Source of the DNA: Sphingobacterium sp.
Lineage (GTDB): Bacteria; Bacteroidota; Bacteroidia; Sphingobacteriales; Sphingobacteriaceae
DNA length: 64,000 bases
Assembly: GCA_022712315.1 (NCBI GenBank)
Contig: JALAGS010000116.1
Span: 1-64,000 of the forward strand
Direction: 5' to 3'
Positions within the stretch are counted from its first letter, which is position 1, and every line of letters begins with the position of its first letter. Both the position numbers and the translations under genes were made by a program. This document shows, in pieces, positions 18,502 to 55,315 of the stretch. Under the pieces are notes generated by a model. The model saw only the letters and a program-made list of their open reading frames with translations. It was not told the DNA's origin and searched no databases.

Positions 18502-21207
18502 ATGTACAGAAGGCTATTATGCACGTTACTCTGTGTCTGTTCCCTTGTTGTTGAGATCAACGCAAGAGATAAAACATCCTCGGTTTCCTATACAATGGAT
18601 GGGATTATAAATCGTGATAGATTTCAGTATGCAATTGAACTTCTCCAACATGAGTTGGAGATCTCGTCATTAACCACGAAGATAGAAATCAGTACAGTGG
18701 TCCAACATAATTCTTTGCCCGATTCTTTGAAAGAAAAGCTAGTTAATCGGGAACATTTTATTATATATAGAAAATCCAGCAAAGGAGCAATATCCTTGAT
18801 TGGTATGGACGAATCTGGTGTGCTTTACGGATGTATGACATTGCTTGCACACAGACAATGGTTGAAAGAGGAACCATTCTTTTTTGCCGACGGTCCAAAA
18901 ATGGTTATGCGCGGGACAAGTGTTGGACTTCAGAAAACAACCTATTTGCCCGGGCATGATATTTACGAGTATCCTTACACACCAGAATCGTTTCCTTGGT
19001 TTTACGATAAGAAGTTATGGTTAAACTATCTGGATATGATGGCCGAAAATAGATATAATGCCCTGTATCTATGGAATGGACATCCTTTTTCTTCGTTAGT
19101 AAAATTAAAGGATTATCCATATGCGCTAGAGGTGGATGAGGAAACATTTGGAAAAAACGAGGAGATTTATACATTTCTGACCAAAGAAGCCAATAAGAGA
19201 GGGATCTGGATTATCCAGATGTTTTATAACATTATCTTGCCAAAACCATTCGCCGATCGCCATGGTTTAAAGACCCAGGAACGAAATCGGGTTATTACGC
19301 CCTTAATTTCCGATTATACCCGAAAAAGTGTTTCCGCTTTCGTGTCTAAATATCCTAATGTAGGTTTACTAATTACGTTGGGAGAGGCCATGGAGGGTGT
19401 TGGCCAGGACGATATCAACTGGTTTACGAAGACAATTATCCCGGGGGTACAGGACGGGTTACATGCTTCAGGTATCAGCATTGAACCGCCTATTATTTTA
19501 AGAGCACACGATACCGATGCACCTGCCGTAATGAAGGCCGCTTTACCTTTTTATAAGAACTTGTATACCATGGCAAAGTATAATGGTGAGGCGTTGACTA
19601 CTTATACACCAAGAGGGAAGTGGGCTGAATTACACCGCTCTCTAAGTGCTATTGGTACGGTCCATATTCAAAACGTGCATATTTTGGCGAACTTGGAGCC
19701 TTTTAGATATGGCTCACCTGATTTTATTCAAAAATCAATGAAAGCAATGCACGAAATTCATCATTCCAATGGTATCCATATTTATCCACAAGCTTCGTAT
19801 TGGGATTGGCCATATGCTGCCGACAAGGTCGATAATAGATTGCTGCAACTGGATCGGGATTGGATGTGGTACAAAGCGTGGGCACGGTATGCCTGGGATG
19901 AAAATAGAAATTTACCACAAGAGCGATCTTATTGGTCAAATGAACTTGCACAATATTATGGGATTTCTGAGAAAGATGCACAGAAATTACTATTAGCGAT
20001 TGAAGAAATTGGTGAGATATCGCCTAAAATTCTGCGACGATTTGGTATTACAGATGGCAACAGACAAACATCTTCTTTGGGAATGTTGATGACGCAATTT
20101 ATTAATCCTTATCGCTATGGATTATTTACTCTTCTTTATGAATCCGAGGCTCCAGAAGGGGAGATGATCATTGAGTATGTAGAGAAGGATTATCACAATA
20201 AAGGCCATATTGGAGAAACGCCTGCCCAAGTGGCAAGAGAAATTGTGCAGCATGGAGAACGTGCGGCAACGCTGATTAAGGAATTGGGACAACCGACTAA
20301 AAATGTAGCTGAATTTAATCGCTGGCTTAATGATATCCAGATTCATCAATTGTTGGCCAATCATTATAGTTATAAGGTTAAAGCTGCTATTCAGCTGCTT
20401 CGATATAAATATTCACATAATCTGAATGCTCTTCGAAATGCTGTGCCGGATTTGGAACAAAGTGTTTCGGAATATCGAAAACTTACGGATATCACAAATA
20501 AGACCTATTTATATGCAAACAGTATGCAGACTAAACAACGTAAGATACCGATGCGTGGAGCCGATGCTACGTTCGTTCACTGGAAAGAGATGCTCCCGGT
20601 CTTCGAAACCGAGTTAAATAACTTTAAACATGCAATAGATTCTTTATCAAAGATGGGGGGTAATGCTGCTCATTCAAAAGTGGTAATAAAGTCCCAACAG
20701 GTCACGTTTTTGGATCATCAGCAATTGATTCCATTGAAAAAGGGAGCAAAATTGTACGCAGATCAGGAGTTGGTGGTGACACATATTGCGAATGAATTAG
20801 AAGGACTACAAGGCATAGAAATTGATGCTGAAAAGCAAAAACTGCAAGGAACACACCTTCGGTTTAAAAATGAAAAACCCGTAAAGATATTGGTTGGCTA
20901 TTTCAATGGCACAGACAAAGTTTTTGCACCAAAGCCTGTGCTGGAAATTGACGCAAGTGCGAACGATTTTGGGCAAGCGGAGGCGAAAATACGTAATGCT
21001 ATCCGTATACAATACATGCCTATGGTTGATATTCATACATATTCTTTTCCGATAGGGACAAATGAACTAAAACTTCCAAAAGGAGAAGTGCTGATTTTGG
21101 GTATTGTGGATGACAAGGAACTTCCTAATCCATATAATGCTGATGTGGACAATCAGGGGGACGATCTGGACGATCTATTTGGCTATTATCATGGAACTAA
21201 ACTGTAA
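18502..21207 (+). CDS. Exported alpha-glucuronidase-like TIM-barrel protein, family unassigned
   Basis: First gene of the pectin block, 901 residues, with the signal peptide LLCTLLCVCSLVVEINA. The N-terminal part (about 25-130) resembles the small alpha/beta domain found before the barrel in GH20, GH67, GH84 and GH115 enzymes (GAISLIGMDESGVLYGCMTLL). A barrel follows (about 135-480) with MRGTSVGLQKTTY, WLNYLDMMAENRYNALYLWNGH, LLITLGEAMEGVGQDD and PQASYWDWPYAADK. A helical region (about 490-720) begins LDRDWMWYKAWARYAWDEN, like alpha-glucuronidases. A beta-rich tail ends in an acidic stretch (DNQGDDLDDLFGYYHG). I cannot place it in a numbered family. An exo-enzyme acting on a uronic acid or other pectic side-chain sugar is inference. 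Glu in GEAMEG is a candidate catalytic residue. Confidence 0.8.
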   Translation: MYRRLLCTLLCVCSLVVEINARDKTSSVSYTMDGIINRDRFQYAIELLQHELEISSLTTKIEISTVVQHNSLPDSLKEKLVNREHFIIYRKSSKGAISLIGMDESGVLYGCMTLLAHRQWLKEEPFFFADGPKMVMRGTSVGLQKTTYLPGHDIYEYPYTPESFPWFYDKKLWLNYLDMMAENRYNALYLWNGHPFSSLVKLKDYPYALEVDEETFGKNEEIYTFLTKEANKRGIWIIQMFYNIILPKPFADRHGLKTQERNRVITPLISDYTRKSVSAFVSKYPNVGLLITLGEAMEGVGQDDINWFTKTIIPGVQDGLHASGISIEPPIILRAHDTDAPAVMKAALPFYKNLYTMAKYNGEALTTYTPRGKWAELHRSLSAIGTVHIQNVHILANLEPFRYGSPDFIQKSMKAMHEIHHSNGIHIYPQASYWDWPYAADKVDNRLLQLDRDWMWYKAWARYAWDENRNLPQERSYWSNELAQYYGISEKDAQKLLLAIEEIGEISPKILRRFGITDGNRQTSSLGMLMTQFINPYRYGLFTLLYESEAPEGEMIIEYVEKDYHNKGHIGETPAQVAREIVQHGERAATLIKELGQPTKNVAEFNRWLNDIQIHQLLANHYSYKVKAAIQLLRYKYSHNLNALRNAVPDLEQSVSEYRKLTDITNKTYLYANSMQTKQRKIPMRGADATFVHWKEMLPVFETELNNFKHAIDSLSKMGGNAAHSKVVIKSQQVTFLDHQQLIPLKKGAKLYADQELVVTHIANELEGLQGIEIDAEKQKLQGTHLRFKNEKPVKILVGYFNGTDKVFAPKPVLEIDASANDFGQAEAKIRNAIRIQYMPMVDIHTYSFPIGTNELKLPKGEVLILGIVDDKELPNPYNADVDNQGDDLDDLFGYYHGTKL

Positions 21208-21302: not shown

Positions 21303-22841
21303 ATGAAAATTAAAAAATCTATTCTTGCGCTTCTTTTTTGTACGCTTTCCTATGTAAAGGCACAGGAAAAATTAGTGGATAAAGTACAAGCCTATGTTCA
21401 AGAGTTTAATAATAACGATAGCGAAGCAGTGATCAATAAGATTCCAAACAAGGATGCCTACGTCTGGATGATGGCGAATATTCCTTTATTGGATTGTCCA
21501 GATAGGGAAATTGAGCAAACTTATTATTTCCGATGGTGGTCCTATCGAAAGCATATTAAGTCGAGCCTTGAAGGTACCTTGGTGACAGAATTTATAGAAC
21601 CGGTAAAACATGCCGGCAAATACAATTCGATCAGTTGCGCACTGGGTCATCATTTGTATGAAGGGAGATGGATTCGCGACAATGCGTTTTTAAAAGAATA
21701 CATTGATTTTTGGCTTTATCATGCCGATAAAGGTCAGTCCAAGCGCAGGTTCCATCAGTTTAGCTCTTGGCTACCCGATGCTTTATTAGCTTATTATAAA
21801 GTCAATCCGGACAAGCAATACTTAAAAGACCGACTATCTGATCTGGATCTAGATTTTGAAAAATGGGAGCAGGAAAGGAAAGGTAAGAATGGTCTCTTTT
21901 GGCAATTTGATGTTCAGGATGGAATGGAAGAGTCTGTCTCTGGTGGACGCAAAGTCCATAATATGCGACCTTCGATCAATAGCTATATGTATGGAAATGC
22001 TGTAGCGATAGCAGCAATTGCCGAATTGGTGTCTAATCCAATATTAGAGAAAAAGTACAGCATGTATGCGCAGTCTTTGCGCCAATTGGTGCTGGATTCA
22101 CTCTGGGACAAAGAGAATCAGTTCTTTAAAACAAAACTGGAGAAAGGTTCTTTACATCCCACCCGTGAGGCAATTGGTTTTGTTCCTTGGTACTTTCATT
22201 TACCGCCAGACAAAGCGACTTATGGAAAAGCTTGGCTCCAGTTGCCGGATACAGCAGGGTTTAATGCTCCGTGGGGAATAACGACGGCTGAGCGGCGAGA
22301 ACCTACATTTAGGACGCGTGGCACTGGGCATAGTTGCGAATGGGATGGTGCCATTTGGCCATTTACGAGTTCACAGACGATTCGGGGAATGGCTAATTAC
22401 TTAAGTGACTATAAAAAAAATAAGGGGATAAATGCTAACGACCTATACGAACAAGTTCATAAATATGCCAAGTCCCATGTGATGAATGGTAGACCTTATA
22501 TAGGTGAATATCAGGATGAAAAGACGGGAGAATGGTTGAAAGGCGACAATCCGAGAAGTAAATTTTATAACCATTCGACATTTGCAGATATCATTATTCA
22601 GGATTTAATCGGAGTAAAGCCGCAAACTAATTCTTTGCTTGAGATAAAACCATTGATTTCGAAAGATAAGTGGGATTACTTTGCACTAACCCAATTGACG
22701 TATCACCATAAGAACATTGCTATTTATTGGGATGTTACAGGTGAAAGATATCACAAAGGAAAAGGATTGACCATCTATGTAGATGGGAAGATGTCCTTAC
22801 AACAAAAGGATTTAAAAAATTGTAAGATTAACTTAAATTAA
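21303..22841 (+). CDS. Exported (alpha/alpha)6-barrel glycoside hydrolase, MGH1/GH63-like
   Basis: 512 residues with the signal peptide SILALLFCTLSYVKAQ. The helical repeats show YYFRWWSYRKHI, ALGHHLYEGRWIRD, WLPDALLAYYKV and SINSYMYGNAVAIAAIAEL. CEWDGAIWPFTSSQTIRGMANYL and a C-terminal FYNHSTFADIIIQDLIGV follow; these are typical of the trehalase/GH63/MGH1-like group of (alpha/alpha)6 enzymes. Acidic residues in RWIRD and CEWDG are candidate catalytic groups. GH142, a pectin beta-L-arabinofuranosidase family, shares this fold, but I cannot prove membership. The gene starts the unit 21303-30736 (this gene, GH28, GH95, GH2), with 1 nt to the next gene, so it is translationally coupled to GH28. 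Confidence 0.82.
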   Translation: MKIKKSILALLFCTLSYVKAQEKLVDKVQAYVQEFNNNDSEAVINKIPNKDAYVWMMANIPLLDCPDREIEQTYYFRWWSYRKHIKSSLEGTLVTEFIEPVKHAGKYNSISCALGHHLYEGRWIRDNAFLKEYIDFWLYHADKGQSKRRFHQFSSWLPDALLAYYKVNPDKQYLKDRLSDLDLDFEKWEQERKGKNGLFWQFDVQDGMEESVSGGRKVHNMRPSINSYMYGNAVAIAAIAELVSNPILEKKYSMYAQSLRQLVLDSLWDKENQFFKTKLEKGSLHPTREAIGFVPWYFHLPPDKATYGKAWLQLPDTAGFNAPWGITTAERREPTFRTRGTGHSCEWDGAIWPFTSSQTIRGMANYLSDYKKNKGINANDLYEQVHKYAKSHVMNGRPYIGEYQDEKTGEWLKGDNPRSKFYNHSTFADIIIQDLIGVKPQTNSLLEIKPLISKDKWDYFALTQLTYHHKNIAIYWDVTGERYHKGKGLTIYVDGKMSLQQKDLKNCKINLN

Positions 22842-30904: not shown

Positions 30905-31519
30905 ATGCCTATGAAACGTTTTGCACTATTCACATTTTTATTTTTAAGTGTGTCTATGACATTTAGTCAAACAGAAGACACCTATTGGAAAACTATTACA
31001 GATCGGTCTGCAAAAATTGTAGCTAAACTAGGGTTAGCGGATCTGACCAAACAAGAAACAGTAGTTCACATTATTCGTGATCAGTATTATCTTTTAAATG
31101 CTTGTTATACACTTCGTGATTTAAAAATCAAGGAGAATACGGATAAGAGCTTAAAAGAGCAGATCACACGGGAGACGCTTCAAGAAACAACCAATTTAAA
31201 TCAAGCTTTTGTAAAACGACTAAAAGAAGTTTTAACAGATTCAGAAGTCGAAGCGGTTAAAAACGGTATGACTTATAATGTTTATCCGAATACCGTAAAG
31301 GCCTATCAAGATATGATTCCTCGCCTTACAAAAGACGAAGTGCATATGATTGACAGTTTGCTTTATGAGGCGCGCGATTTTGCGATGCAAGCTGAATCGT
31401 CGGAAAAAAAACACGCTTGGTTCGGTAAATACAAAGGCAAAATCAATAACTATTTAGCGTCTCATGGCTATAACCTAAAAGAAGAAGGCGATAAATGGGC
31501 TGCGAGATTAAAAAAATAA
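30905..31519 (+). CDS. DUF3826 family exported protein (first copy)
   Basis: 204-residue protein with the signal peptide RFALFTFLFLSVSMTFSQ. The rest is predominantly alpha-helical, with LTKQETVVHIIRDQYYLLN and a C-terminal LTKDEVHMIDSLLYEARDFAMQA...WFGKYKGKINNYLASHGYNLKEEG. These features match the DUF3826 family, found in pectin and hemicellulose utilization loci of Bacteroidota; function is unknown. It lies 13 bp before SusC, so it is made with the importer. A structural or accessory role in the SusCD complex, or a small enzyme, are both possible. A paralogue is encoded at 54677-55315. An ATG two codons further in (30911) is an alternative start. Confidence 0.8.
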   Translation: MPMKRFALFTFLFLSVSMTFSQTEDTYWKTITDRSAKIVAKLGLADLTKQETVVHIIRDQYYLLNACYTLRDLKIKENTDKSLKEQITRETLQETTNLNQAFVKRLKEVLTDSEVEAVKNGMTYNVYPNTVKAYQDMIPRLTKDEVHMIDSLLYEARDFAMQAESSEKKHAWFGKYKGKINNYLASHGYNLKEEGDKWAARLKK

Positions 31520-37046: not shown

Positions 37047-38678
37047 ATGTTACACAAAATAACGCTGACAGCATTGCTAAGTCTCATTACATCAATCGCA
37101 TTTTGTCAGTATCCCAAAATTCCAGAAGACGTTAAGAAGTCCACAGATGACCTAATGAAGAAAGCATATCAGCAATCTGACGATGCATGGCAAAAAGCAC
37201 TGCCTGTGATAGAAGAATATGCAAAACAAGGAAAACCTTATATTCCGTGGGCTGGACGGCCTGACGATCTGCCACAAGCTAAGATTTTGGCTTTTCCAGA
37301 AGCGGAAGGCGGCGGTAAATTCACTTTCGGTGGACGTGGTGGGAAGGTTTACGTTGTGACGAGCCTGGAAGATAACGGTCCCGGTTCATTGCGGGAAGCT
37401 TGCGAAAAAGGCGGTCCTCGCATTATCGTATTTAATGTTTCAGGTATCATACGCCTTAAAACCCCATTAATTATCCGGGCTCCTTATGTAACGATTGCAG
37501 GGCAGTCTGCTCCTGGAGATGGTGTCTGCGTGGCCGGAGAATCTGTTTGGATTAATACACACGATGTTTTGATCCGACATATGCGTTTTAGACGTGGGGA
37601 AACCTATGTCGGCCGTCGCGATGATGCCATTGGTGGTAATCCGGTTGGAAATATCATGATTGATCACGTTTCTGCTAGCTGGGGCCTAGATGAAAATATG
37701 TCTATGTACCGTCATATGTATAATGATAGCACCGGTAAAGCAGAAGAGAAACGTGGTACCGTCAATATTACCATTCAGAATTCTATTTTCTCTGAGGCCC
37801 TGGATACCTGGAACCACGCCTTCGGTAGCACCTTAGGGGGAGAAAATTGTACGTTTATGCGTAACCTCTGGGCAAATAATGCGGCCCGTAACCCGTCTAT
37901 TGGTTGGAATGGTTTGTTCAATTTCTATAATAACGTTGTTTACAACTGGGTGCATCGATCAATTGATGGCGGTGATTATCAGGCAACTTATAATATTGTG
38001 AATAATTACTTTAAACCAGGTCCTGCGACCCCGTTGGATCAGCCTGTAAGTTACCGCATCTTAAAACCTGAATCGGGTAGAAGTAAATTGCCCTATGTGG
38101 TATTTGGCCGTGCGCATGTGAAAGGAAATGTTGTTGAGGGCAACGCGAAGGTAACAGCCAATAACTGGGATGGTGGTGTGCAGTTGGAAAATAAAAAAGG
38201 CGATGCAATGACTTTTTCAGAAGCACAACCTTACTTTGCAGCGATGAGTGTAAAGGAAGCATTTCCGCACGCTAATTTCCCGGTAATGACTGCGCAGGAA
38301 ACTTATGGTTTTGTTCTTGATCATGCCGGAGCGACTCTGCCTAAACGGGATCCTGTAGATACGCGGGTGATAGGCGATGTTAAAAATGGTAAGCCAGTGA
38401 GACTATTAAGCAACGTGAAATTACCTGAAAAGGATTTTGAACACAGAAGATTGTCAAAAGATTCGTATAAGATTGGCATTATCACCGACATATCCCAAGT
38501 GGGCGGATACCCAGTATATAAAGGGACACCTTACAAAGATTCCGACAATGATGGAATTCCGGATGCAGTTGAAAAAGAAATGGGACTGAATCCAAATGAT
38601 CCTAGTGATTCCGCGAAGATTACAGCGTCAGGTTATGCAAACATCGAACTCTATCTGAATAAATTAGCTGCTAAATAA
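37047..38678 (+). CDS. Pectate lyase, PL1 family (first of a tandem pair)
   Basis: Exported beta-helix lyase, 543 residues, signal peptide ITLTALLSLITSIAFCQ. An N-terminal helical extension with IPWAGRPDDLPQAKI leads into AFPEAEGGGKFTFGGRGGKVYVVTSLEDNGPGSLREAC, the PL1 entry. GDGVCVAGESVWINTHDVLIRHMRFRRGE, RRDDAIGG and GNIMIDHVSASWGLDEN form the conserved calcium- and substrate-binding strip. It cleaves unesterified or low-esterified homogalacturonan by beta-elimination. The C-terminus has a calcium-binding-like DSDNDGIPDAVEKEMGLNPND module. It is roughly two-thirds identical to the next gene product over the core. Confidence 0.94.
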   Translation: MLHKITLTALLSLITSIAFCQYPKIPEDVKKSTDDLMKKAYQQSDDAWQKALPVIEEYAKQGKPYIPWAGRPDDLPQAKILAFPEAEGGGKFTFGGRGGKVYVVTSLEDNGPGSLREACEKGGPRIIVFNVSGIIRLKTPLIIRAPYVTIAGQSAPGDGVCVAGESVWINTHDVLIRHMRFRRGETYVGRRDDAIGGNPVGNIMIDHVSASWGLDENMSMYRHMYNDSTGKAEEKRGTVNITIQNSIFSEALDTWNHAFGSTLGGENCTFMRNLWANNAARNPSIGWNGLFNFYNNVVYNWVHRSIDGGDYQATYNIVNNYFKPGPATPLDQPVSYRILKPESGRSKLPYVVFGRAHVKGNVVEGNAKVTANNWDGGVQLENKKGDAMTFSEAQPYFAAMSVKEAFPHANFPVMTAQETYGFVLDHAGATLPKRDPVDTRVIGDVKNGKPVRLLSNVKLPEKDFEHRRLSKDSYKIGIITDISQVGGYPVYKGTPYKDSDNDGIPDAVEKEMGLNPNDPSDSAKITASGYANIELYLNKLAAK

Positions 38679-38790: not shown

Positions 38791-40419
38791 ATGAAATCAT
38801 TATTTAATCGAAATACCATGTTACTATTGGGTTTAATAAGCCCAATAGTAACACTGGCCCAATATCCAGTTATTCCAGATTCGCTGAAGAAATTGGCAAC
38901 TGAGCAGGAAAATACGGAAAACATACGTTTAGAAAAAGTCTGGGCGGAAGCACAGGAAATTATAAAGAAAGAAGGGAAGCCCTATATTCCTTGGGCTGCC
39001 AAACCTAATGACTTACCACAGGCGAAAATTAAGGCATTTCCTGGGGCTGAAGGTGGAGGTGCTTACACTGCCGGTGGCCGGGGTGGAAAAGTTTTTGTTG
39101 TGACGAGTCTTGCGGACAGTGGACCGGGAACGTTAAGAGAAGCCTGTGAAGCCGGTGGTGCCCGTATTGTTGTATTTAATGTTGCTGGCATTATTCGACT
39201 TGAGAAACCGATTGTCGTAAAAGCACCCTATATTACGATTGCTGGACAGACAGCACCAGGAGACGGAGTGTGTGTTGCTGGTGAATCTTTTCTAATTGAT
39301 ACACACGATGTTATTTTACGCTTTTTACGTTTACGTCGCGGTGAAACTGACGTGACGCGTCGTGATGATGCTGTAGGAGGAAATGTAGTCGGCAATATTA
39401 TGATTGATCACGTATCTGCAAGCTGGGGATTGGATGAAAATATGTCTATCTACAGGCATGTATACGACCGGGAAGACAAAAATCTCAAATTACCTACCGT
39501 CAATATTACAATCCAGAATTCTATTTTTTCTGAAGCATTAGATGCTTACAACCACGCGTTCGGAAGTACAATAGGCGGATTGAATAGTACCTTTATGCGT
39601 AATCTATGGGCTTCAAATATTAGCCGGAATCCATCTATCGGAATGTATGGCGACTTTGGATTTGTCAACAATGTCATTTGGAACTGGTGGAATCGAAGTG
39701 CTGATGGCGGAGACAATAAATCCTTATTCAACTTTATCAATAATTACTATAAACCCGGGCCGATTACCCCCAAAGATAAGCCAATTGCCTATCGGATCTT
39801 AAAGCCAGAGTCTGGAAGAGATAAAGCGTTTAAAGATCAGTATGGAAAGGTATATGCACATGGTAATGTAGTAGAAGGTTTTCCAAAGGTTACTGAAAAT
39901 AACTGGGCTGGCGGAATTCAGATCGAAGACCTAGCGAATGTAGGTAGCCGTGAAAAAGAAATCCGCGTGGATAAAGCTTTTCCAATGGCACCCGTGACCA
40001 CACTATCCGCACAGGATGCCTACAGCTATGTACTTAAAAATGTTGGTGCATTTTTGCCAAAGCAGGATGCCGTTGATCAACGGATCATTAAGCAAGTGTC
40101 GGAGAATAAAGTCTATTATGATACGACGAAAGCGCAACATGGATTTGTATCGCCATATGTTAAGCGACGCCTCCCAGAAGATTCTTACAAACAAGGAATT
40201 ATATCGGATATCGCGCAGGTGGGCGGTTATCCAACTTATGTGGGGGAACCTTATCAAGATTCAGACAAAGACGGCATTCCTGACAATGCGGAGAAGAGCA
40301 TGGGTTTAAATCCCAATGATCCCGGCGATTCGAGAAAAATTGCTAAAAATGGCTATGCCAATATTGAGAATTATTTAAATGGGGTTGTTGCATTAGATGC
40401 CGTCGTGCCCAAAAAATAA
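38791..40419 (+). CDS. Pectate lyase, PL1 family (second of a tandem pair)
   Basis: Paralogue of the preceding lyase, 542 residues, signal peptide MLLLGLISPIVTLAQ. It shares the same modules in order: AFPGAEGGGAYTAGGRGGKV, GDGVCVAGESFLIDTHDVILR, RRDDAVGG, GNIMIDHVSASWGLDEN and a C-terminal DSDKDGIPDNAEKSMGLNPND. Differences concentrate in the loops after GMYGDFGFVNNV and in the C-terminal third, which suggests different endo/exo action or different tolerance for methyl or acetyl groups. The divergence shows an old duplication. 112 bp separate the two genes with no obvious promoter; the next gene follows after 9 bp. Confidence 0.94.
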   Translation: MKSLFNRNTMLLLGLISPIVTLAQYPVIPDSLKKLATEQENTENIRLEKVWAEAQEIIKKEGKPYIPWAAKPNDLPQAKIKAFPGAEGGGAYTAGGRGGKVFVVTSLADSGPGTLREACEAGGARIVVFNVAGIIRLEKPIVVKAPYITIAGQTAPGDGVCVAGESFLIDTHDVILRFLRLRRGETDVTRRDDAVGGNVVGNIMIDHVSASWGLDENMSIYRHVYDREDKNLKLPTVNITIQNSIFSEALDAYNHAFGSTIGGLNSTFMRNLWASNISRNPSIGMYGDFGFVNNVIWNWWNRSADGGDNKSLFNFINNYYKPGPITPKDKPIAYRILKPESGRDKAFKDQYGKVYAHGNVVEGFPKVTENNWAGGIQIEDLANVGSREKEIRVDKAFPMAPVTTLSAQDAYSYVLKNVGAFLPKQDAVDQRIIKQVSENKVYYDTTKAQHGFVSPYVKRRLPEDSYKQGIISDIAQVGGYPTYVGEPYQDSDKDGIPDNAEKSMGLNPNDPGDSRKIAKNGYANIENYLNGVVALDAVVPKK

Positions 40420-40428
40420 AAAATAACC

Positions 40429-43400
40429 ATGAGTAAAAGAATACTGTTCTTTTCTTGTCTCGGACTATATGCCTTCATCTGTACTGCACATGCACAACAA
40501 ATGAAGGCATATAGTCCTTTGGTATGGGATGAGGGAAAGTTTGTTTACCATGCGGATTCGCTTGGAAACCAAATTCCTGATTTTTCCTATGCAGGATATA
40601 AAGGAGGCAACGAAGCTATTCCTACAGGACAGATTGCTGTCGTTGTTCCTGTAAAATCAGGTGATGCGACGCAACGAATACAAGCTGCCATTAACTATGT
40701 GTCAATGCTACCGTTGGGTAAAGATGGATTACGAGGAGTGGTGCTTTTACAAGCGGGAGTTTATTCTGTTTCCGGTTCTCTTAAAATAAGTGCCTCAGGT
40801 GTTATTCTGCGTGGTAGTGGTTTCACAACAAATGGAACTGTCATCATTGGTGAAGGAACAACAAGAGAAACACTCATCCGTATTCTCGGAAAAGACAATA
40901 TCACGTTTGCAAAAAAGACAAACGTAACAAGTGCTTACGTCCCTGTCAACGCGCGGGTATTGGATATTGATCATGCAGCTTCCTATAAAGCTGGAGATAA
41001 AATTAGGATTACAAGACCTTCCACGCAAGATTGGATTAATCAGCTTGGCACCGGTCATTTCGGCGGCGGGATCACTTCTTTGGGTTGGAAGCCTGGGCAA
41101 CGTGATGTTCATTGGGATAGAACGATTGTCGCTGTGAAAGGCAATCGTATCGAGATCGACGCCCCAATCACAACGGCCTTGGATAAACATTACGGTCAGG
41201 CGACCGTCGAACGATATACTTGGAAAGGAAGAATCGAAAATGTCGGTATAGAAAATATTGCACTTAAATCTGCTTTCGATGCTAATAACCCGAAAGACGA
41301 AGACCATCGCTGGATGGCGATTACTATTGAAAATGCGGAAAACGTATGGGTGCGCCGCATGCAGTTTCAGCATTTCGCAGGATCAGCCGTTTACGCTTTA
41401 GCAAGTACCCAAAAATTAACTGTTGAGGATTGTATTTCTCGGGACCCGGTGTCAGAAATCGGTGGCCAAAGAAGATATACTTTTTTCACAAAGGGGCAAC
41501 AGACCTTATTTCAGCGGCTTTATTCTGAGCAGGGATATCATGATTTTGCAGTGGGCTACCTGGCAGCAGGGCCAAATGCTTTTGTCCAATGCCAAGCAGT
41601 AGAGCCTTTCAGTTTCAGTGGTGGAATAGACAGCTGGGCGTCGGGAGTTCTTTTTGACAATGCAGATATAGATGCGCAGGCACTAAGCTATAAAAACAGA
41701 GGTCAAGATGGTCAGGGAGCTGGCTGGTCGGCAGCAAATTCTGTATTTTGGCAATCGACAGCTGGACTTGTAGAGTGTTACCAACCGCCAACCGCGCAGA
41801 ACTGGGCCTTTGGCATTTGGTCTCAATTTCAGGGAAATGGTTATTGGGAGCAATCTAATGAATACATTAAGCCCAAAAGTTTGTATTATGCCCAGTTGCG
41901 CGAAAGGATTGGCCCGGCTGCTGATGAGCGGGCGGTACTGTTGCCGGTGCTGACTGAAGCGTCCAGTAGTCCGCCCGTCAGTGTTGCCATGGAGTTGACG
42001 AAACAATCGATAAACCCAATGATGGAGCTGGTTGATTTTATTACTGAGGCGAACAAGCGTTATACCTTAAATACCACGGCAACTAAGGTAAAAACCATTG
42101 ATCAGATTGATTATAAAGAGCTCATTCCTCCGAAAAAACAAGCTGATATGCGTGTCGTGAACGGTTGGTTGGTACGAGGCGATGAAGTACTCGTGGGAGC
42201 GAAATCGGATGTGCCCTGGTGGAATGGTAGCGCTCGCCCATATGGCGCCGAGAAAGCAAAACCACATATCACCCGCTATGTCCCTGGAGAAATTGGCAAT
42301 GGGCTCACCGATGACCTGGATGCCATGACCGATAGCATGCTTCAAAACAATGTATTGGCTATTGATCACAACTACGGACTGTGGTATGACCGCCGCAGGG
42401 ACGACCACGAGCGTATCCGTCGGATAAATGGGGAGGTGTGGCCTCCGTTTTATGAATTGCCATTTGCACGTAGTGGTCAGGGGTTAGCCTATGACGGCCT
42501 GTCTAAGTATGATTTGACAAAGTACAACAAATTTTACTGGGGACGCTTGAAACAATATGCAGATCTAGCAGACCAAAGAGGTTTGGTATTGCTGCATCAA
42601 AATTATTTTCAACATAATATTATCGAAGCTGGTGCACATTATGCGGACTTCCCATGGCGTGCAGCTAATAATATCAATAATGTCGGATTTCCAGAACCGG
42701 TTCCTTATGCTGGTAATAAACGAATTTTCATGGCAGAACAGTTCTACGATATCGATAACCCTGTTCGTCGTTCATTACATCGCGCTTATATCCGTCAATG
42801 CTTGGATAACTTTAAAGATAACTCGGGAGTCATTCAGATGATCAGCGCGGAATATACGGGACCCTTACATTTCGTTCAGTTTTGGGTCGACGTAATCAAA
42901 GAATGGAAAGTGGAGACAGGTAAAAATCCAATTATTGGTTTGAGTGCAACAAAAGATGTACAAGATGCTATTTTAGCCGATAAAGAACGTGCTAAAGAAA
43001 TTCAGGTCATTGATATCCGCTACTGGTATTATCAAGCCGATGGAAAGAGCTATGCTCCCCAAGGTGGGCAAAATCTGGCGCCGCGTCAGCATGCACGATT
43101 GTTGAAACCAAAGAAAACATCGATGGAGGCCGTTTATAAAGCCGTATCCGAATACCGCACAAAATATCCTGATAAAGCAGTATTATACTTTGCTGACAAC
43201 TACCCAACGATGGCTTGGGCATCTTTTATGGCAGGTGGTTCTATGGCAAACCTACCTAAGATAGGAAACAACGATTTCTACCGTGCAGCATCGGCGATGA
43301 AAGCGACAGAAATCAATGGCGCCTTGTTGCTAAAAGGTAGCCAAGGTCTGATCATTTATAAGGAAAAATCTGATGCAGCAGATATTGATCTATCCGATTA

Positions 43401-43539
43401 TAAAGGTGGTTTTGAAATGACACGCATTAATCCGAAAAACGGAACGATTATCAAAATAGAGAAGATCAATCTCGGGAAGCATATTCATTTGAGCAATTAT
43501 ACAAAAGAGCCAGAAATTATTTGGCTAAATAAGAAATAA
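40429..43539 (+). CDS. Beta-helix plus TIM-barrel-like fusion protein (DUF6298-like), function unknown
   Basis: 1036-residue exported protein (signal peptide ILFFSCLGLYAFICTAHAQ). The first half (about 55-490) reads as a right-handed parallel beta-helix: IQAAINYVSMLPLGKDGLRGVVLLQAGVY, SGVILRGSGF, ENVGIENIALKS, ENVWVRRMQFQHFAGSAVYAL. These resemble pectate lyase/GH28-type folds but lack their catalytic signatures. The second half (about 620-1000) looks like a hydrolase barrel: NVLAIDHNYGLWYDRRRDDHERI, YWGRLKQYADLADQRGLVLLHQNYFQHN, VIQMISAEYTGPLHFVQFWVDVIKEW, IGLSATKDVQDAIL. SAEYTG (Glu about 805) is a candidate catalytic site. The second half resembles the DUF6298 domain to my recollection. 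It lies 5 bp before GH140, so a role on the same substrate is expected. Confidence 0.75.
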   Translation: MSKRILFFSCLGLYAFICTAHAQQMKAYSPLVWDEGKFVYHADSLGNQIPDFSYAGYKGGNEAIPTGQIAVVVPVKSGDATQRIQAAINYVSMLPLGKDGLRGVVLLQAGVYSVSGSLKISASGVILRGSGFTTNGTVIIGEGTTRETLIRILGKDNITFAKKTNVTSAYVPVNARVLDIDHAASYKAGDKIRITRPSTQDWINQLGTGHFGGGITSLGWKPGQRDVHWDRTIVAVKGNRIEIDAPITTALDKHYGQATVERYTWKGRIENVGIENIALKSAFDANNPKDEDHRWMAITIENAENVWVRRMQFQHFAGSAVYALASTQKLTVEDCISRDPVSEIGGQRRYTFFTKGQQTLFQRLYSEQGYHDFAVGYLAAGPNAFVQCQAVEPFSFSGGIDSWASGVLFDNADIDAQALSYKNRGQDGQGAGWSAANSVFWQSTAGLVECYQPPTAQNWAFGIWSQFQGNGYWEQSNEYIKPKSLYYAQLRERIGPAADERAVLLPVLTEASSSPPVSVAMELTKQSINPMMELVDFITEANKRYTLNTTATKVKTIDQIDYKELIPPKKQADMRVVNGWLVRGDEVLVGAKSDVPWWNGSARPYGAEKAKPHITRYVPGEIGNGLTDDLDAMTDSMLQNNVLAIDHNYGLWYDRRRDDHERIRRINGEVWPPFYELPFARSGQGLAYDGLSKYDLTKYNKFYWGRLKQYADLADQRGLVLLHQNYFQHNIIEAGAHYADFPWRAANNINNVGFPEPVPYAGNKRIFMAEQFYDIDNPVRRSLHRAYIRQCLDNFKDNSGVIQMISAEYTGPLHFVQFWVDVIKEWKVETGKNPIIGLSATKDVQDAILADKERAKEIQVIDIRYWYYQADGKSYAPQGGQNLAPRQHARLLKPKKTSMEAVYKAVSEYRTKYPDKAVLYFADNYPTMAWASFMAGGSMANLPKIGNNDFYRAASAMKATEINGALLLKGSQGLIIYKEKSDAADIDLSDYKGGFEMTRINPKNGTIIKIEKINLGKHIHLSNYTKEPEIIWLNKK

Positions 43540-43543
43540 CAAC

Positions 43544-44944
43544 ATGTCTATTCGTAAGAAACTTATACTATTTACAGTTGCAGGAGCACTTTTTTCGTGT
43601 ACGTCCAATAAAGAGGCGAAGCACCCTACACTTTTGAAAATTTCGGAAAACGGTAGGTATATCATGACCGAAGATGGGAAACCTTTCTTTTGGCTGGGCG
43701 ATACGGGCTGGTTGCTTTTCAACAAGATGAACCGGGCGGAAGCGGAGCAATACCTGGAGGATCGGAAACAAAAAGGTTTCAATGTCATCCAGGCCATGGT
43801 CCTGCATACCGTTCCTTCCGTAAATAGTTATGGTGATTCTTCGCTTGTCAACAAAGATATTTCGAGACCGCTTGTGACCGAAGGGAACAATCCGGATAAT
43901 GCAACAGCGTATGATTATTGGGATCATGTCGATTACATTATTGATAAGGCAGCTGAAAAGGGACTCTATGTTGCTTTGGTCCCGGTTTGGGGATCACCGG
44001 TGAAGGATGGAAAAGTATCAGCTGAGCAAGCAGAAAAATATGCCACATTTCTTGCGGAAAGGTGGAAAGACCGTCCGAATATCATTTGGTTAAATGGTGG
44101 TGATATTAAGGGATCAGATAAGATGGAAGTGTGGGAGAAAATCGGCCAAACAATAAAATCCATCGATCATAACCATTTAATGACTTTTCATCCTAGAGGA
44201 CGAACGGCTTCTTCGGATTGGTTCCACGATAGACCCTGGCTGGATTTCAATATGGTGCAATCTGGACACCGTACCTACGCTCAGGACACTTCCGCGAATG
44301 AACAGAAACATTATGGCGAGGATAACTGGAAGTTTATGGCAGCCGACTGGGATATAAAACCCATTAAACCAACGATCGACGGGGAACCTTCTTATGAAGG
44401 CATCCCACAGGGATTACACGATATCACCCAACCGCGCTGGAAAGATGCTGACGTCAGAAGATATGGCTATTGGTCTGTATTTGCTGGTGCATTTGGTTAT
44501 ACCTATGGGCAAAACTCGGTCATGCAGATGCATGGGAAGCAAGATTCCACCTCGGCCTATGGTTCGGATGAGCTATGGAGTTCGGCAATCAATGCGCCGG
44601 GTGCGTCCCAAATGAAATTTTTGAAGGAGCTTATGCTGTCAAGAGACAATTATTTTGATCGTGTTCCCGATCAGTCTTTAATTGCGGATAATGGTGATAA
44701 ATACAATCGTTTACTAGCGACAAGAACTGGGAATTACGCATTTATCTACAATTACAACGGTAGGGAAATGAAAATTAATATGGGAAAAATCAATGGGGAC
44801 AAAGTAAAAGCGTCCTGGTTTGATCCCCGAAATGGGTCGACCAAAGTGATCGGAGAGTTTGAAAATAAAGGTGTACAAACTTTTGTACCTGAGGGAGGAC
44901 AAAAAGATGGAAACGACTGGGTATTGATCTTAGATAGCATTTAA
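43544..44944 (+). CDS. Glycoside hydrolase family 140 (apiosidase type), lipoprotein
   Basis: 466 residues with a lipobox (VAGALFSCTS, Cys about 19). The DUF4038-type barrel begins GRYIMTEDGKPFFWLGDTGWLLFNKMNRAEAEQYLEDRK. The catalytic pair reported for the B. thetaiotaomicron apiosidase BT1012 (Asp and Glu near 187 and 284) is matched by WLNGGDI (about 186) and TIDGEPSYEG (about 280). A C-terminal beta-sandwich (YAFIYNYNGREMKINMGKI) is the usual collagen-binding-like domain. GH140 cleaves apiose linked to galacturonic acid at the base of rhamnogalacturonan II side chains A and B, the strongest pointer in the window to rhamnogalacturonan II or another apiosylated pectin. The stop overlaps the next start by 1 nt. 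Confidence 0.92.
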   Translation: MSIRKKLILFTVAGALFSCTSNKEAKHPTLLKISENGRYIMTEDGKPFFWLGDTGWLLFNKMNRAEAEQYLEDRKQKGFNVIQAMVLHTVPSVNSYGDSSLVNKDISRPLVTEGNNPDNATAYDYWDHVDYIIDKAAEKGLYVALVPVWGSPVKDGKVSAEQAEKYATFLAERWKDRPNIIWLNGGDIKGSDKMEVWEKIGQTIKSIDHNHLMTFHPRGRTASSDWFHDRPWLDFNMVQSGHRTYAQDTSANEQKHYGEDNWKFMAADWDIKPIKPTIDGEPSYEGIPQGLHDITQPRWKDADVRRYGYWSVFAGAFGYTYGQNSVMQMHGKQDSTSAYGSDELWSSAINAPGASQMKFLKELMLSRDNYFDRVPDQSLIADNGDKYNRLLATRTGNYAFIYNYNGREMKINMGKINGDKVKASWFDPRNGSTKVIGEFENKGVQTFVPEGGQKDGNDWVLILDSI

Positions 44945-45873
44945 TGAGGAATTTGGTCAAATTGTTTATTTTATTTAGTGTGGCATCGATCTTGGCTTCC
45001 TGTCAGCGGGATGTTTACCTATTTACCTCGTTCCACGAACCCGCCAATGAAGGTTTGCGCTATCTGTATAGCAAAGATGGCTACCATTGGAGTGCGATTA
45101 ATGGGGTTTATTTAAAACCAAAATTAGGAAAACAGAAAATCATGCGCGATCCGTCGATGATACGGGATAAACAAGGTATTTATCATTTGGTATGGACCAT
45201 TGGTTGGCAGGGAAATGAAGGAATCGGCTACGCACGTTCAAAAGACTTGATCCATTGGGAAAATCAACAGATTGTTCCAGTGATGCAACAAGAAGCAACC
45301 ACCGTCAATGTTTGGGCGCCAGAGTTATTTTATGATGATATAGAAGACCGGTTTATTATTATTTGGGCTTCCACCATTCCTTATCGCTTCGCAAAAGGCG
45401 TAGAAGAAGAGAAAAACAATCACCGCATGTACTATACGACAACAAAGGATTTTAAATCCTTTACGGAGACGAAATTATTTAGCGATCCGGGCTTTAGTAT
45501 CATTGATGCGGTCATTGTCAAAAAAGAGCAAAAGGATTATGTGCTTGTATTAAAGGATAATACGCGGCCCAATCGAAATCTAAAGGTAGCCTTTGCGAAA
45601 AATCCGTTGGGGCCATTTCAGCAGATATCTGAGCCTTTCTCGCCGTATTTAAGTGAGGGACCTGCGGTGCTTAAAGTCAAGGATCAATGGTTAATCTATT
45701 TCGATTCATATGGTAGCAAAAGCTATGAGGCTGTGTCCACCAAAGATTTTAAGGTCTTCGAAAAAATCAACGACAAGATTTCCGTTCCAGAAGGGCATAA
45801 ACATGGAACGATCTTCAAAGCGTCCAATAAAGATTTAAAAAATTTGCTTCGGGATGAAGCCAAAAAGAAATAA
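44944..45873 (+). CDS. Glycoside hydrolase family 43-like lipoprotein
   Basis: 309-residue five-bladed propeller with lipobox ASILASCQRD (Cys about 20). VYLFTSFHEPANEGLRYLYSKDGYHW is the GH43 first blade, IMRDPSMIRDKQGIYHLVWTIGW has the central Asp, VWAPELFYDD follows, and the region SEGPAVLKVKDQWLIYFDSYG has the Glu that replaces the more usual EAP context. It is short and domain-pure. Arabinofuranosidase action on rhamnogalacturonan II or arabinogalactan side chains is likely because GH43 enzymes sit beside GH140 in B. thetaiotaomicron loci, but the activity is not proven. It is coupled to GH140 (TAATG) and to the next gene (1 nt). Confidence 0.87.
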   Translation: MRNLVKLFILFSVASILASCQRDVYLFTSFHEPANEGLRYLYSKDGYHWSAINGVYLKPKLGKQKIMRDPSMIRDKQGIYHLVWTIGWQGNEGIGYARSKDLIHWENQQIVPVMQQEATTVNVWAPELFYDDIEDRFIIIWASTIPYRFAKGVEEEKNNHRMYYTTTKDFKSFTETKLFSDPGFSIIDAVIVKKEQKDYVLVLKDNTRPNRNLKVAFAKNPLGPFQQISEPFSPYLSEGPAVLKVKDQWLIYFDSYGSKSYEAVSTKDFKVFEKINDKISVPEGHKHGTIFKASNKDLKNLLRDEAKKK

Positions 45874-45874
45874 T

Positions 45875-47707
45875 ATGACGATCAAATCAGTATTAGTCAG
45901 TCTATCGCTGGCTGCTGCCGTGCAACAGGTGGTAGCACAGCAAGACACGGTACGGTATATAGGAAAGACATTATCCAATGTGGATTATCACCATGGACAG
46001 CTGACACCTGCTGTGGGTACGCACAATATCCAGGTATTTCGAGCAAACAGAGAATTTCCTGAATTGGCCGGCGGACATCACTTTACCTATAACCATCAGC
46101 CTTTCTTAGCGTATTGGAATGATACTTATTATTTACAGTTTCTGAGCAATCCTGTGGGGGAGCATATCGCGGAAGGAAAAACCTTGTTGTTAACATCAAA
46201 AGATGGTCGCAATTGGTCCAGCCCTATAGATCTATTCCCTACTTATCTGGTTCCAGAAGGCTTTACCAAGCCGGGACGAACTGATAAGGCCGGAAAAAAC
46301 CTGTATGCAATCATGCACCAGCGTATGGGCTTTTATCATGCAAAGAATGATAAATTGCTGACGCTTGCTTATTACGGTGTAGCCCTGGATGCCAAGGACG
46401 ATCCAAATGATGGGAATGGTCTTGGACGTGTCGTCCGGGAGATCCACAAAGATGGTAGCTTTGGGCCAATCTATTTTATTCACTTCAATGCCTCTTTCGA
46501 TGAGAAGGGTGCCAAATATCCTTTTTATAAAAAGAGCAAGGATAAGGCCTTTATACAAGCTTGTGACGAATTGCTGGGCACGCCACTCATGATGCAGCAA
46601 TGGGTAGAGGAGTCCGATCGAAACGATCCATTAATTCCTTTGCAGCGTCCGGTAAAAGCGTTTTCCTTTTATCATCTCAATGATGGAAGGGTCGTCGGTT
46701 TATGGAAGCATGCATTGACATCGGTGAGCAAGGACAATGGAAAAACCTGGCAATACTCACCGTTGCGCGCCCCCGGATTTGTGAACAGCAATGCAAAAAT
46801 CTGGGGACAAAAAACATCCGATGGGCGCTACGCAACAGTGTATAACCCATCGGAATTCAGATGGCCCCTAGCCGTATCAACCAGCAATGATGGTTTGAAC
46901 TATACCGATTTGTTATTGGTTAACGGTGAGATCACCACAATGCGTTATGGCGGTAACTATAAGTCTTATGGACCGCAATATGTTCGTGGTATCGTCGAAG
47001 GAAATGGCATGGTTCCCGATCGTAACATGTGGTTGACGTACAGTATGAACAAAGAAGATATTTGGACTGCTGTTGTACCTGTTCCGATCATTTCTACCGT
47101 AGAAGAGGCCGTGAACGATGATTTTTCGAAAAATGAAGGACAAGCCTATAACAACTGGAATATTTATAGTCCATTGTGGGCAAGTGCCAAGGTTGAAGGA
47201 AAAGCGTTGGTCTTGCGTGATAAAGATCCTTTTGACTATGCGAAGGCAGATCGTGTGATTCAATCGGCACAAAAAGGCACCATTGAATTTACCGTAACGC
47301 CACAACAAAATGATCATGGCTCTTTACAGATTGAGTTGGTGAATGATAGTGGCTTAGCAGCTGCGAGAATTATTATGGATAAAGATGGCATTATAAAAAA
47401 TAAAGCCGGGTACCGAAATGCTTCGTTGACGAAATATGAGGAGGGAAAAACGTATCACTTTGCATTGACTTTCGATGTGAGCACCCGCTCTTATCAAGTT
47501 GCCATTAACGGAGAGGATAAAGGGACAAAGTTATTTTTCCAACCGGTAAGTAATGTGAGCAAAGTGTCGTTCCGTACAGGCGATGTCAGAAGGTTTCCCA
47601 ATGCGGATACGGAAACAGATCAGGACTTTGATGTCGAAAATGCGGGAGCTTCGGTAAAAGAAGCCACTTATCAGATTACTTCGTTGAAAGCTCAAAAGCT
47701 GAAATAA
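45875..47707 (+). CDS. Exported beta-propeller protein with C-terminal lectin-like domain, family unassigned
   Basis: 610 residues after choosing the ATG at 45875, which directly follows the GH43 stop; the ORF track start lies 7 codons into that gene. The signal peptide is LVSLSLAAAVQQVVAQ. Residues about 35-400 carry sialidase/BNR-like blades (LLLTSKDGRNWSSPIDLFP, SVSKDNGKTWQYSPLR, VSTSNDGLNYTDLLLV). The last 190 residues look like a concanavalin-type sandwich (IEFTVTPQQNDHGSLQIELVND, YHFALTFDVSTRSYQVAINGEDKG). Sialic acid is not a plant sugar, so a keto-deoxy sugar such as Kdo or Dha, both in rhamnogalacturonan II, or another acidic residue is a possible target. Binding without catalysis is also possible. 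Confidence 0.75.
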   Translation: MTIKSVLVSLSLAAAVQQVVAQQDTVRYIGKTLSNVDYHHGQLTPAVGTHNIQVFRANREFPELAGGHHFTYNHQPFLAYWNDTYYLQFLSNPVGEHIAEGKTLLLTSKDGRNWSSPIDLFPTYLVPEGFTKPGRTDKAGKNLYAIMHQRMGFYHAKNDKLLTLAYYGVALDAKDDPNDGNGLGRVVREIHKDGSFGPIYFIHFNASFDEKGAKYPFYKKSKDKAFIQACDELLGTPLMMQQWVEESDRNDPLIPLQRPVKAFSFYHLNDGRVVGLWKHALTSVSKDNGKTWQYSPLRAPGFVNSNAKIWGQKTSDGRYATVYNPSEFRWPLAVSTSNDGLNYTDLLLVNGEITTMRYGGNYKSYGPQYVRGIVEGNGMVPDRNMWLTYSMNKEDIWTAVVPVPIISTVEEAVNDDFSKNEGQAYNNWNIYSPLWASAKVEGKALVLRDKDPFDYAKADRVIQSAQKGTIEFTVTPQQNDHGSLQIELVNDSGLAAARIIMDKDGIIKNKAGYRNASLTKYEEGKTYHFALTFDVSTRSYQVAINGEDKGTKLFFQPVSNVSKVSFRTGDVRRFPNADTETDQDFDVENAGASVKEATYQITSLKAQKLK

Positions 47708-54676: not shown

Positions 54677-55315
54677 ATGAAAAAGGTCTTATCAATTTTT
54701 ATACTAAGTCTACTGCTGAGGAGCCTGTATGCGCAGGACAATACAACGGAGCAGAAAAAATCGCAGGAGTGGACTGCAGAGCTCAAGCTTGCCAATCCGG
54801 CAAAAGAAGAAAAGATCAAAAGCCTGATCTTGAGTCATCTGATAGCCGTGAAAGAGTGGCACAATAGCCATCCGATTATTACTGTTCCAGCAGGAATAAA
54901 TCCGTACACGGGCGAAAAATTAAGTGATATAGACCGTTCCATTATTGCAGATTCAGCGCAGCCCGATTCTATACACAACAACTTGATGGCTGGTTTGCGT
55001 CAAGAGCTTGAAGAGCAACAGGTTGCTTTTATCTTGGACAAATACACGATCGGAAAAGTTGATTTCACCTTAAAAGGATATAAGGCAATTGTCCCAGATC
55101 TGACAGCAGTTGAGGAACAGACCATCCGTAAAAATTTAGAAGAAGCCCGCGAAAAAGCAATAGATTATAAAGGGATTAAGCAAGTTTCTGCCATTTTTGA
55201 AATTTACAAAAATAAATGTGAGGCTTACTTAAATGCCAACGGCCGCAACTGGCGTCAATTATTCAAAGATTATGTGGCAAAGGTAAAAGCCGAAAAAGAA
55301 AAGCAACAGAAATAG
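54677..55315 (+). CDS. DUF3826 family exported protein (second copy)
   Basis: 212-residue protein, signal peptide LSIFILSLLLRSLYAQ. Helical throughout, with PAKEEKIKSLILSHLIAVKEWHNSH, EELEEQQVAFILDKYTIGKVDFTLKGYKAIVPDLTAVEEQTI and a basic C-terminus. The pattern parallels the first copy at 30905: a Thr/Gly-containing strand, then P-x-L-T followed by acidic helix and a Y-L-x-x-x-G segment. Function unknown. It is 4 bp after GH78, far from SusC, which argues against an obligate role in the importer and favours an enzyme or binding protein acting with the exo-hydrolases. Two copies in one locus are unusual. Confidence 0.78.
   Translation: MKKVLSIFILSLLLRSLYAQDNTTEQKKSQEWTAELKLANPAKEEKIKSLILSHLIAVKEWHNSHPIITVPAGINPYTGEKLSDIDRSIIADSAQPDSIHNNLMAGLRQELEEQQVAFILDKYTIGKVDFTLKGYKAIVPDLTAVEEQTIRKNLEEAREKAIDYKGIKQVSAIFEIYKNKCEAYLNANGRNWRQLFKDYVAKVKAEKEKQQK

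Follow-up and report, generated by a model that had tools for sequence, protein, structure and literature searches.

In the window, by which we mean the whole 64,000-nucleotide stretch of Sphingobacterium sp. DNA analysed here, an uninterrupted frame runs from an ATG at position 40429 to a stop at 43539 and encodes 1036 amino acids. It starts 9 nt past a PL1-like gene and stops 4 nt ahead of the ATG of a GH140 apiosidase gene (43544). A signal peptide ending in ...TAHA, followed by QQ, lies at its start, and the protein is probably exported to the periplasm. An earlier note, made from the letters of this DNA alone, had proposed an exported fusion of two folds in a GH140 and RG-II context. The open frame, the signal peptide and the fold matches described below bear out the first point, and the apiosidase gene next door, together with the GH138 and GH143 homologues in the window, bears out the second.

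Judged by its gene content, the window is an RG-II locus, because it holds homologues of GH138, GH140 and GH143 besides other glycan genes, namely GH28, GH95, GH2, GH78 and GH43-like genes, an acetylesterase-like gene and a SusC/D pair (Table 1). The two tandem PL1-like genes are strongly conserved, yet no Pfam lyase model matches them. The locus also contains an MGH1-like glycosidase gene (21303-22841) and two stand-alone DUF3826 genes (30905-31519 and 54677-55315). DUF3826 also ends the pectin methylesterase BT1017, where this domain did not bind RG-II (PMC7939467).

Table 1. Parts of the fusion protein and neighbouring genes in the window.
Feature	Position (strand)	Basis and remarks
GH138 homologue (RG-II chain A galacturonidase)	18502..21207 (+)	6hzf BPa0997, E 8e-289
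Second PL1-like gene	37047..38678 (+)	NCBIfam; 59% identical to the 38791..40419 gene
PL1-like pectate lyase gene, directly upstream	38791..40419 (+)	NCBIfam PelZ partial match
Signal peptide	40429..40494 (+)	Residues 1-22; putative cleavage after AHA; mean conservation 0.31 (family alignment)
N half, predicted right-handed beta-helix, lyase-like module	40495..41913 (+)	Residues 23-495; Foldseek, weak NCBIfam match, other architectures
Linker and small strands	41914..42228 (+)	Residues 496-600; conservation 0.57; model
Predicted (beta/alpha)8-type barrel	42229..43248 (+)	Residues 601-940; DUF6298 match, models, Foldseek, conservation
C-terminal beta-sandwich, GH140-like	43249..43536 (+)	Residues 941-1036; secondary structure, low-probability hhalign
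GH140 apiosidase, next gene downstream	43544..44944 (+)	Pfam Apiosidase, E 2e-119; BT_1012 3kzs/5msy, E 2e-147
GH143-type gene (Dha hydrolase half of BT_1020), RG-II marker	45854..47707 (+)	5mqr, E 2e-229; BT_1020-like propeller (Pfam)

Fold, family and distribution of the fusion

Modelled with AlphaFold on an alignment of 50 relatives, the mature protein reached a pLDDT of 76 and a pTM of 0.79. In Foldseek, the N half of this model matched beta-helix depolymerases and lyases, including 9k4a (E 1e-10), 7w1c and a K1 capsule lyase, and its C half matched the GH5 mannanase ManDH5 and GH140 apiosidases including BT_1012 (9gpg, 5msy and 8t9w, 5msy being BT_1012 itself). A separate model of the C half from 81 sequences was better than the whole-protein model (pLDDT 82.6, pTM 0.82), with confidence below 50 in two conserved loops. 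Since this C-half model yielded barrels alone (E down to 8e-13), the beta-helix matches can be assigned to the first half. Against GH140, it gave E 1.5e-11 with 5msy and TM-scores of 0.58-0.60 by target with 8t9w. Such moderate TM-scores (0.5-0.6) therefore indicate fold kinship, not family membership, and the back half is, as modelled, a distant fold of the clan GH-A/GH140 type. Overall, the confident models and the fold matches firmly support a two-fold anatomy, in line with the earlier description of a beta-helix that carries no standard pectinase signature, followed by a TIM-barrel-like half.

By sequence, residues 471-957 belong to the Pfam family DUF6298 (PF19815; E 1e-252), the sole Pfam domain found. 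The score of 839.7 bits compares with a gathering threshold of 28.1, and model positions 1-487 of 487 are covered. Pfam assigns no function to this family, no publication naming DUF6298 or PF19815 was found in the literature searched, and searches for a described Bacteroides thetaiotaomicron counterpart of the fusion returned none. The protein had been put forward as an undescribed pectin enzyme: the function is indeed undescribed, but the family was already catalogued. In PDB sequence searches, for which the queries were the whole protein, a profile of each half and a stand-alone relative, the only matches were weak ones of the N half to beta-helix lyases, and PADLOC gave no match. Although Pfam describes DUF6298 as a domain by itself, every full-length member carries it joined to a beta-helix. 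The Pfam boundary at 471 probably cuts into this helix; the helix-type sequence common to stand-alone modules extends to about residue 490.

At least 572 relatives came up in a genome scan, and 80 of them were kept for comparison. Nearly all of the kept relatives come from Bacteroidota, and two lie in assemblies labelled Phycisphaerae and Sedimentisphaerales. Both halves are covered in all 80. In a sample of 396 Bacteroidota genomes, 19 carried a full-length copy, each as one open frame of 1011-1083 aa. The fusion of beta-helix and DUF6298 is thus fixed, beyond chance, as a single frame in 80/80 relatives and 19/19 sampled genomes.

The most constant neighbour is the PL1-like gene, which is the nearest labelled upstream gene in 76 of the 80 kept relatives. 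Within a 10-kb neighbourhood, GH140 accompanies 62 and GH143 accompanies 64 of the 80. In two genomes with GH140 about 64 kb off, the PL1-like gene still lies directly before the fusion or one gene away. Across the 396 genomes, the 19 with full DUF6298 are exactly the 19 with a GH143 homologue at 51% identity or more, and two further genomes carry GH143 homologues at 43%. GH140 is present in 19/19 DUF6298 genomes (Fisher p 1.5e-23 for genomes and 7e-10 for genera, with kinship ignored). With GH140 in 34 genomes and DUF6298 in 19, the former at first seemed frequent without the latter; this objection was dropped, as most of the additional GH140-family genes are distant and all of them lie outside such loci. 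The genomic tie between the DUF6298 fusion and RG-II enzymes is therefore firm, and the fusion is a core gene of RG-II loci.

The beta-helix half

The N half partially and weakly matches the BT_3328 hyaluronan/chondroitin lyase family in NCBIfam (NF058554, E 2e-10). That family has been placed in PL29 (PMC9067506), but at 39.5 bits against a cut-off of 1100, the N half falls far outside it. A copy of PL1 was ruled out as its origin, because its profile, compared with that of the PL1-like family next to it, gave a negative result (11%). The N half also resembles GH141 in being a beta-helix of an RG-II locus; the GH141 enzyme BT1002, an RG-II fucosidase, is a catalytic beta-helix encoded in such a locus (PMC10154630). 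On the other hand, its domain arrangement differs from that of GH141, and the PDB sequence searches gave no match to 5MQP.

A profile of the N half finds the same module elsewhere. Some copies stand alone (507-522 aa), others carry T9SS tails, and in the same genome the module follows a GH88-like domain. In another genome, a stand-alone gene for the module is followed by a GH88 gene. The substrates of GH88/GH105 enzymes are lyase products, and by analogy with these partnerships the module is therefore probably a uronate lyase. The GH88-like fusion of this genome (899 aa; contig C112, 8118-10814, minus strand; L147) lies beside alginate-lyase-like, GH95 and GH2 genes and a hybrid two-component regulator, genes by which this locus appears as another uronate locus of the genome.

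We compared 81 family members with 20 lyase-like relatives of 30-39% identity. H293 is invariant in both sets (81/81 and 20/20), R349 is nearly so, and the N half retains H371. By contrast, position 370 is Arg in 20/20 lyase-like relatives and in 0/81 members of the DUF6298 family, which have Tyr, Phe, Met or Asn (Y370 here), and position 400 is His in 20/20 relatives and in 0/81 members, which have Ile, Val or Thr (I400 here). As two basic residues invariant in the relatives are gone, the alignment suggests that lysis has been lost or altered in the N half of the DUF6298 clade. What is new here, at the level of sequence comparison, is that the N half belongs to a lyase-like module occurring elsewhere alone or with GH88, and that the DUF6298 clade is without the Arg and the His invariant in its lyase-like relatives.

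The barrel half and its candidate acid

The barrel (residues 601-940) is the most conserved region of the protein, with a mean of 0.81 and 90/340 positions invariant, compared with 0.73 and 76/473 for the N half and a mean of 0.45 for the terminal sandwich. The SAEYTG motif highlighted in the earlier note contains E808, the Glu that the note had placed near 805, which is invariant in 81/81 and located directly after strand 801-807, at the end of beta4. Strands were numbered from the model and by comparison with GH140 by eye. In the model, E808 occupies the place where clan GH-A retaining enzymes carry their acid/base carboxylate. For the nucleophile expected at beta7, no invariant acid follows strand 917-920, as assigned in the model; the best candidate is D923 (61/81). 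Another acid, D862, lies on beta6, and the barrel protein has the conserved loop motifs RRRDDHER, FQHNIIEAGAH and KDVQD.

GH140 apiosidases (BT_1012, 5msy/3kzs; 8t9w) share with this half a barrel followed by a C-terminal beta-sandwich, an acid at the beta4 end and the same loci. Unlike them, the protein gives no hit with PF13204, the Apiosidase model, up to an E-value of 1, is without the beta7 Glu of GH140 (IDGEP) and carries an extra N-terminal beta-helix. Assignment of the C half to GH140 by hhalign was rejected, as the probability was 8% and covered the C-terminal sandwich only.

Stand-alone DUF6298 relatives of about 480 aa, at 13-19% identity, share only two acids with the barrel, E808 and D695, and align an NE motif at the E808 position. 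Such relatives with the NE motif (480-570 aa; L020-L030) have a weak Pfam assignment or none, and their settings differ, with sulfatase neighbours in L114. One stand-alone DUF6298-like gene lies about 15 kb from a full-length gene (genome G287, contig C11, 80000-99000), where a RuBisCO-like gene, an SBD_N/NBD_C sugar-acid kinase and GH127 also occur; these genes suggest apiose breakdown in connection with RG-II.

Possible roles in RG-II breakdown

In our preferred reading, to which we give a probability of roughly 0.4, the barrel is catalytic on RG-II with E808 as its acid, the beta-helix holds the uronate backbone, and the protein is a core component of the RG-II locus. The C-terminal barrel, resembling glycoside hydrolases of the GH-A/GH140 kind, would be the catalytic part, and E808 would be the general acid. 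The second group would be one other than a beta7 Glu, the candidates being D862 and the acids in the conserved loops of beta2, beta3 and beta5. The neighbouring PL1-like lyase would make RG-II fragments; the beta-helix, descended from a uronate-lyase module and stripped of two residues invariant in its relatives, would mainly hold their galacturonate backbone, while the barrel may act on a side-chain linkage near that backbone. In favour of this reading are the genomic tie to RG-II enzymes, the fold and conservation of the barrel, E808 and the GH88 partnerships of the N-half module. The missing Arg and His at 370 and 400 lend indirect support to the earlier note's suggestion that one half could bind the galacturonan backbone and the other act on a branch. 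The conservation of the N half counts against this reading, since it exceeds the needs of a mere binding domain, and closeness to RG-II genes does not point to any one linkage.

The high conservation of both halves, with many invariant polar residues, would fit both being enzymes, the helix cutting the backbone or a uronate branch and the barrel a neighbouring linkage, as in the two-domain BT_1020 (5mqr), a fused enzyme of RG-II loci. Nevertheless, each half is short of some of the catalytic or invariant residues seen in its relatives, and we consider this arrangement unlikely. It is a little less probable still that the beta-helix alone is active, with a rearranged site (H293, R349, H371 and D372), either as a lyase still or as some other uronate enzyme, the barrel being ancillary or inactive. 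H293 and R349 are preserved across family and relatives, the entire N half is well conserved, the module accompanies GH88 elsewhere and the most constant neighbour is lyase-like; however, the Arg and His of all 20 relatives are missing in all 81 members, and conservation is higher in the barrel than in the helix. That neither half is catalytic, the protein instead binding, chaperoning or handling cross-links of RG-II in the periplasm, would fit the missing beta7 nucleophile and lyase residues but is quite improbable given the very high conservation of one acid, in the acid/base place, and of pocket-type loop motifs.

Returning to the reading of a catalytic barrel, we propose, with the odds somewhat against it, that DUF6298 may represent a family of glycoside hydrolases (or of uronate-processing enzymes) that is new and is needed for RG-II breakdown across Bacteroidota, in which a GH-A-type barrel without a beta7 nucleophile would receive its substrate from a former lyase beta-helix. 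Residues E808, D862, Y370 and I400, together with the separable halves, offer concrete points for testing. RG-II, the most complex of the pectins, also ranks high in complexity among plant glycans generally, and most of what is known about its enzymes comes from a single gut species. The fusion occurs wherever the sampled Bacteroidota carry genes for dismantling RG-II, and so probably supplies a part that the pathway has been missing. A gene that coincides with close GH143 in every sampled genome, with no function assigned, hints at a step or an accessory activity absent from the pathway as described.
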